From: Acidobacteriota bacterium
Lineage (GTDB): Bacteria > Acidobacteriota > Terriglobia > Terriglobales > Acidobacteriaceae
Direction of reading: 5' to 3'
NCBI GenBank assembly: GCA_021798735.1
Contig: JAJZCA010000005.1
Location: 1-32,919 of the forward strand
Length of the DNA: 32,919 bases
Within the stretch, counting starts at the first letter, position 1, and every line of letters starts with the position of its first letter. Below are positions 31,894 through 32,919 of the stretch, one piece after another. A model generated the notes under the pieces. That model worked only from the letters and a program-made list of their open reading frames with translations, had not been told where the DNA came from and did not search any database. A program made the position numbers and the translations under genes.

Positions 31894-31918
31894 ACATCTA
31901 GTTGCGTTAACTAGGTGT
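31894..31918. terminator. Hairpin between convergent genes (possible bidirectional terminator)
   Basis: ACATCTAGTT-GCGTT-AACTAGGTGT, 10-bp stem with one T.G wobble and 5-nt loop, lying between convergent stops at 31887 and 31918. No clear U-tract. Confidence 0.4.
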
Positions 31919-32568
31919 CATTTGGACACACCAAACTTAGAGAGCATTCTTTCGATCCAGTGTTGCTTTTGCTTCGACAAGCCGCTGAGAGCATCCATTC
32001 TGTCGAGGAAGAGTCTCCTCTGACTACTTTCAGGAACCTTCAAATCCTGACATAATCGGTTGAATTCAACGATGATCCGCTCATGGAATATACTTCGATT
32101 TATTATCCGTGAGTTATCCTTCTTTAGCAGGAGCTGGTCGGTGTCTCTCCGTATTTTCCAATTTCCGCGGGTTTCCCCATTGTGGAATAATCCATTTCTG
32201 ACATCGGCAAAAAACTCTCCCCTGTCCTTACTTTTAAAATCCGAGAATGATGCAGCCTTCAAGAAGTTCTTGAAAGATTTTGCCGTACTCGTTTCCCCGG
32301 TTTTGATTCGCCCCTCTCGAAATGACTGGATCGTATCAATCAGTAGACAATCGAGCGCGAGGATTGCAAATCCCGACCTCATCGTTAGGCTTTTATCTTG
32401 CTTTAAGAGTTCTTCGATTGGCTTGAGAAATCTTTCCGAGATGCGTCGATGAAAGGCATCCAACACTCGCTTCCATTCCTCGCTTGATTCCTGGCTACTC
32501 AATTTGTCTCGAATTTCGAGATAACTCCCAATCGTGAACTTCGACGCAAGTTCTGTCTCCAGATCCAT
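31918..32568 (-). CDS. Uncharacterised 216-aa protein with HEPN-like Rx4H motif
   Basis: Good SD (GGGAGAA) before ATG; mainly helical composition; GEFFADVRNGLFHNGETRGNW contains RNGLFH. Confidence 0.6.
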   Translation of the reverse strand: MDLETELASKFTIGSYLEIRDKLSSQESSEEWKRVLDAFHRRISERFLKPIEELLKQDKSLTMRSGFAILALDCLLIDTIQSFREGRIKTGETSTAKSFKNFLKAASFSDFKSKDRGEFFADVRNGLFHNGETRGNWKIRRDTDQLLLKKDNSRIINRSIFHERIIVEFNRLCQDLKVPESSQRRLFLDRMDALSGLSKQKQHWIERMLSKFGVSK

Positions 32569-32659
32569 AAAATTTCTCCCGACTTTGTCCAGATTATAAG
32601 TTCAACGCACTTCAGGCCAGGCGACATCAACAACTAGCAAGATACTCCAAGGTGACCCC

Positions 32660-32919
32660 ATGTCGATTCCGTATGCCTTGCAAGGAATATTTCAAGGCCT
32701 TCCCCCAAATACACAATCCCTCGTCCTGCGCGACTATGGAGTCCGCAAGAAATCCGGACTCTTCGCCTACTTTTTCTGGTTCTTCTTCGGCTTCCATTAC
32801 CTCTATCTGGGCCGCATCGGGATTCAGTTGATCTACTGGCTGACAGTCGGCGGTTTCGGCCTCTGGATGCTGATCGATCTGTTCCGCATCCCCGGCATGG
32901 TGGAGCGGAAAAACGAAGA
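32660..32919 (+). CDS. TM2 domain-containing protein, truncated by right edge
   Basis: Translation from ATG 32660: MSIPYALQGIFQGLPPNTQSLVLRDYGVRKKSGLFAYFFWFFFGFHYLYLGRIGIQLIYWLTVGGFGLWMLIDLFRIPGMVERKNE; TM2-like G-x-H-x-x-YLGR-x-G and W-x-L-I-D-L-F pattern. Confidence 0.85.
   Translation, partial: MSIPYALQGIFQGLPPNTQSLVLRDYGVRKKSGLFAYFFWFFFGFHYLYLGRIGIQLIYWLTVGGFGLWMLIDLFRIPGMVERKNE

Follow-up and report, generated by a model that had tools for sequence, protein, structure and literature searches.

The window, that is, the whole stretch of 32,919 nucleotides of the Acidobacteriota contig analysed here, carries close to its right-hand end an open reading frame (ORF) for a HEPN-like protein of 216 aa. 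The RNGLFH stretch that the initial annotation had reported in this ORF, at residues 124-129 on the complement of 32182-32199, was recovered exactly at that place. The features of the gene and of its predicted product are listed below.

31918..32568, minus strand: ORF of the HEPN-like protein P0001, 216 aa, ATG start (sequence reading and homologues)
32182..32199, minus strand: Rx4H motif RNGLFH, residues 124-129, R124 and H129 being predicted catalytic residues (invariant in 29/29 aligned and 6/6 held-out sequences)
32335..32337, minus strand: codon of D78, the acidic position of helix 2 (D/E in 29/29), second HEPN feature of PMC3710099
32398..32481, minus strand: predicted helix 1, residues 30-57, with R42 and R46 (AlphaFold2 model and alignment)
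32314..32373, minus strand: predicted helix 2, residues 66-85 (AlphaFold2 model)
32179..32232, minus strand: predicted helix 3, residues 113-130, with the motif at its end (AlphaFold2 model)
32098..32160, minus strand: predicted beta strands after the motif, residues 137-157 (AlphaFold2 model; compare the beta-hairpin of Csx1, PMC3710099)
32038..32097, minus strand: predicted helix 4, residues 158-177 (AlphaFold2 model)
32575..32579, minus strand: GGAGA, likely ribosome-binding site, 6 nt 5' of the ATG (sequence reading)
32593-32598: TATAAT upstream of the ORF (sequence reading)

A convergent gene of the alpha/beta-hydrolase-like type ends 30 nt downstream of the ORF, and about 90 nt upstream of it begins a divergent TM2-type ORF (32660-32917), which the contig end truncates. 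The GC content of the HEPN-like ORF is 0.447, compared with a mean of 0.575 (sd 0.024) for the 651-nt stretches of the window before position 31900; the lowest of these reaches 0.507, and the ORF thus surpasses every other part of the window in AT content. GC3 follows the same trend (0.52 versus 0.69-0.73 in the adjacent genes), in accordance with the earlier impression of a region AT-richer than its neighbours. The acquisition of the gene that had been proposed on these grounds is also supported by the closest relatives of the protein, which belong to different phyla (Vulcanimicrobiota, Acidobacteriota, and Pseudomonadota), and by the place in which the gene is found. In fact, other genes occupy the position after the hydrolase in congeners, which makes it a variable spot, and six congeners lack the TM2-type ORF after the hydrolase, so that it may share the acquired stretch with the HEPN-like gene. 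A separate observation concerns the hydrolase itself. In two genomes, a partial copy of the 3' end of its gene (L077:9700-9850 in G004 and L078:1311-1401 in G009; 88-89% identical to the window hydrolase at the DNA level) recurs some 1.1 kb after the intact gene, from which a c-type-cytochrome-like gene separates it; this hints that the DNA behind the hydrolase is a site of recombination or insertion.

The caution expressed at the outset that so short a motif can occur by chance was well founded: Rx4-6H is present in 70% of the shuffles of the window protein and R[NDH]x3H in 4.6% of them, so the motif on its own is weak evidence. As judged from the aligned sequences, it is the invariance of the motif across homologues, and not the bare motif, that goes beyond chance. 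Homologues were sought with the window protein and then with the alignment as query, and the resulting family alignment comprises 29 sequences with 22-58% identity to the window protein. Only eight query columns are invariant where filled (R42, R46, G66, F99, F102, R124, H129, and F161), and position 78 is always acidic (D or E). R124 and H129 are fixed while the positions between them vary (C/N/H, G/A/S, I/L, and others), which is the behaviour of a catalytic pair. Six homologues from later profile searches, kept outside this alignment, all carry the motif in register (RCGILH, RCGLLH, RHGLLH, RCGIFH, RCSLIH, and RNSIIH) and keep an acid within the helix-2 stretch. R42 and R46, present in 28/28 sequences of alignment A2, are not retained in the remotest relatives, and the core of the family is thus reduced to the helix-2 acid and Rx4H. 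Lack of conservation of R124 and H129 had been named as a ground for abandoning the HEPN reading, and both residues turned out to be kept by all 29 aligned and all six held-out proteins.

The HEPN domain has been described as a pair of alpha-hairpins, four helices in all, with an insert separating helix 2 from helix 3, in which the motif lies at the end of helix 3 or the start of the helix 4 loop, with a polar residue (N, D, or H) after the Arg, and in which helix 2 bears a conserved acidic residue, often as Ex3[KR] (PMC3710099). The AlphaFold2 model of the window protein, obtained with 23 homologues (pLDDT 92.9, pTM 0.87), consists of helix 1 (30-57), helix 2 (66-85), an insert that includes a short helix, helix 3 (113-130), strands, and helix 4 (158-177), and that of a second family member has the same layout (pLDDT 91.2). 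Both models have the HEPN order of elements, with the motif (124-129 in the window protein) at the end of helix 3. The initial annotation would have given up its reading for a predicted fold of another kind; the model is helical and has its elements in the HEPN order. The comparison of this fold with the PDB by Foldseek, in two lists, gave no significant match, the best TM-scores, below significance, corresponding to AbiV (9bj7, 0.36 by target length) in one list and to AF0298 (2hsb, 0.50) in the other, in which chains of the HEPN RNase Csm6 occupy ranks 1-3, also below significance. The TM-scores of these HEPN proteins are supportive of a HEPN fold for the modelled protein, without being proof of it.

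Profile searches were negative for HEPN. The window protein had no match in Pfam, NCBIfam, or PADLOC, and the HEPN part of the 29 members had none in the same libraries either; by hmmscan, no member was matched at E<=1 by the Pfam families RiboL-PSP, Apea, AbiV (PF18728), or HepT, and a sequence search of the PDB returned nothing relevant. Since no HEPN profile matches, membership is based on the motif, the order of elements, and the structure matches below threshold. A HEPN profile match is a practical aid to assignment and not a defining biological feature; when the family was compared by hhalign with RiboL-PSP, AbiV, and HepT sets (PF18739 and PF18736 had too few sequences), even these known HEPN families missed one another, so that the comparison speaks neither for nor against membership. 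Two details of the family depart from the HEPN description: in 19 of the 29 members the Arg is followed by Cys in place of N, D, or H, and Ex3[KR] is absent, position 82 being S/A/G/C instead of K/R. An unrelated helical protein, conserving Rx4H for some other reason, would explain why neither a profile nor a PDB fold matches significantly, but it is an improbable candidate, given that the position of the motif, the acidic residue of helix 2, and the order of elements are as in HEPN and that the top TM-scores belong to HEPN proteins. The HEPN-type reading of the initial annotation is thus sustained by conservation and by the model, with Foldseek HEPN matches of sub-significant score and no HEPN profile match, and the family is best described as an undescribed HEPN-type family, named in no library.

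The family is rare and patchily distributed. Homologues were found in 6/150 related genomes (own genome counted), at 21 loci of the GTDB collection, and on 10 plasmids, chiefly of Agrobacterium, Rhizobium, and Sinorhizobium, and whole-genome surveys yielded 2/396, 1/385, and 6/395 positive genomes, each count including the genome on which the search was centred. Seven phyla are represented (Acidobacteriota, Pseudomonadota, Bacteroidota, Campylobacterota, Fibrobacterota, Chloroflexota, and Vulcanimicrobiota). Low GC, patchy occurrence, relatives across phyla, and plasmid copies are the marks of a family that is spreading horizontally. These frequencies also bear on the reading of the protein as a non-cutting binder of RNA or nucleotides with the HEPN fold and a housekeeping or regulatory role. 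Activity is missing in some HEPN domains (PMC3710099), and the residue that follows the motif Arg, N in the window protein, is unusual in most members (C in 19, N in 9, and H in 1 of the 29). However, the strict conservation of R and H favours catalysis, and such rare presence argues against housekeeping, so that a non-cutting binder has little probability. As for individual copies, that of the Rhizobium sp. C104 plasmid (L031:5956-6590) is split across two reading frames and is probably broken, and that of Chloroflexota (L013:3607-4264) runs in two frames near the N-terminus, owing to a sequencing error or decay. The contig titled 'Helicobacter pylori PMSS1' (L019) is a MAG out of a larger survey, and the organism name may be unreliable.

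The genomic neighbourhood has been used to look for a partner. HEPN toxins are often paired with an antitoxin, for example in HEPN-MNT systems (PMC7641770), and the protein might be the toxin of such a pair, with its antitoxin next door or elsewhere. This is unlikely, since the window gene is monocistronic and has no small ORF adjoining it, and when the genes surrounding 26 homologues were compared all against all, no family recurred, the only repeats being those of two closely related plasmids and a single weak match. The lack of a conserved neighbour speaks against an obligate partner or a toxin-antitoxin pair. In particular, the HEPN-MNT nucleotidyltransferase antitoxin is absent beside the window gene, and no neighbour of the family is conserved. 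The earlier remark that no partner antitoxin is visible also holds. The search for defence genes gave a divided answer, as they are found near some relatives and not beside the window copy, which lies among housekeeping genes. Near the relatives, Shedu was found at L029, CBASS 2TM and 4TM effectors at L017 and L032, DrmA (DISARM-like) and PDC-S33 at L025, MzaA at L026, TmtA at L023, and Lit together with a QueC-type gene and an XRE regulator at L034 and partly at L033. PADLOC families amounted to 147 over 138 ORFs near homologues versus 36 over 59 ORFs in a control that is small and crude (single-genus, with generic matches such as DinG); the difference is suggestive, and the association is consequently claimed for the named loci and not as an enrichment. 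On two Agrobacterium plasmids, the QueC-like 7-cyano-7-deazaguanine synthase and the XRE regulator are both conserved next to the family member (L033:3920-5296 and L034:3915-5294) and look like a separate defence-type cassette.

Some relatives carry an additional domain. The three closest homologues (L007, L008, and L009; 51-58% identical) and the more distant L010 possess a C-terminal AIG2/GGACT domain that matches human gamma-glutamylcyclotransferase (GGCT) with an E of 4e-9 and contains a conserved E-x-G-Y stretch, which in our reading would sit at the expected place of the catalytic Glu. The window copy stops before this domain, as does the majority of the family. The tree groups the window copy, with full support, as the sister of L007-L009, and two changes are required to account for the domain: the window copy may have lost it, or it may have been gained twice independently. 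Another candidate fusion, a 760-aa open frame at L020, was rejected because a 739-aa antisense ORF overlaps it. The window gene could also be seen as a decayed or unregulated HEPN-GGCT remnant, possibly non-functional after losing its C-terminal domain. The presence of GGCT in the sister clade and in L010 and the mere 30 nt between the stop codon and the next gene would fit such a history, for which we nevertheless see a small chance: most family members are naturally free of GGCT, the domain may have arisen twice, the ORF is full with none of its catalytic positions damaged, and model confidence is high along the whole chain. In the relatives that carry it, the GGCT-like domain probably supplies control or sensing. 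A more specific scheme, a new kind of one-protein defence in which the HEPN RNase is under the control of the fused GGCT-like domain, with gamma-glutamyl (e.g., glutathione-related) chemistry coupled to RNA cleavage and the window copy freed from the domain, is put forward tentatively, as a possibility that we consider rather unlikely. A full-text literature search found no paper naming both HEPN and gamma-glutamylcyclotransferase.

A link with phages has been found through structure. Viral contigs contained no relative, and a phage search with the window protein as query found none; Foldseek against viral models gave two matches with a probability of 1.00. One of them is a 229-aa protein of Arthrobacter phage Nandita (gp35 by its length), which bears the motif RCSFLHQG and whose gene adjoins the integrase. 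This protein belongs to phrog_18591, a temperate-phage family annotated as of unknown function, with members in Gordonia, E. coli, B. subtilis, and Acinetobacter phages. In phrog_18591 the R, the H, and the helix-2 Asp are invariant (Rx4-6H in 7/7), and several copies adjoin integrases or sit a few genes off. Profile-profile comparison with the window family gave an E of 2.2e-5 with the motifs in register. Both share the RCxxLHxG motif and the acidic helix-2 residue, although they are only about 13% identical and the phage proteins have no annotated function; phrog_18591 is thus a sister family and not the same family. In Escherichia phage ECP1, an unannotated 158-aa ORF of this phage HEPN-like family (RCKCLH) lies in an annotation gap (L085:2501-2977).

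Taken as a whole, these data make it fairly likely that the window ORF encodes a solo HEPN-type ribonuclease effector of a family without a name in any library, and its predicted product is probably a solo antiphage or stress-triggered RNase. By analogy with HEPN enzymology, two subunits would pair and their R124/H129 motifs would jointly form one metal-independent RNase site, in which H129 would activate the 2'-OH, R124 would steady the transition state, and D78 would assist. In healthy cells the protein would be kept inactive until infection or stress triggers it, and the ensuing cleavage of RNA would stop growth or the production of phage, as in the abortive infection exerted by the solo HEPN proteins Tha and DS-11. 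Plasmids and accessory regions would mediate transfer between hosts, a related family being carried by temperate phages, and the window copy would operate without the GGCT-like domain, or would have lost it. The proposal is of biological significance because a family with relatives in several phyla, on plasmids, and in phages thereby receives a function that is open to testing and for which the catalytic residues are named, and because an unannotated temperate-phage family is now linked to it; the HEPN-GGCT fusion, for its part, would point to a new control of a suicide RNase.

Several known systems can be compared with the window protein. The Pfam families RiboL-PSP, Apea, AbiV, and HepT have an RN-x-(I/L/V)-x-H type signature like that of the window protein, although its His is typically missing from AbiV (PMC3710099). 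The CRISPR HEPN RNases Csm6 and Csx1 have Rx4-6H in common with the family, and Csx1 has a beta-hairpin directly after the motif (PMC3710099), matched by the strands of the window protein model; however, neither a CARF domain nor a CRISPR context is seen here, and the sequences are far apart. Closer in organization is Tha, a HEPN defence protein of a Staphylococcus aureus prophage, whose motif is R265NSIMH270 and whose H270A mutation abolishes defence (PMC11087260). As described, Tha is also a solo HEPN protein without a partner antitoxin, and it resides on a mobile element, just as the related phage family is often near an integrase; on the other hand, it has 301 aa, an N-terminal region, and a tail-protein trigger (PMC11087260). 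Finally, DS-11 is a one-protein defence system of the CBS-HEPN type (PMC13092281), in which HEPN is joined to a metabolite-type partner domain as in the GGCT-fused relatives, although that partner is CBS and not GGCT and the window copy has none. Tha and DS-11 indicate that single HEPN proteins are capable of the kind of defence proposed here.
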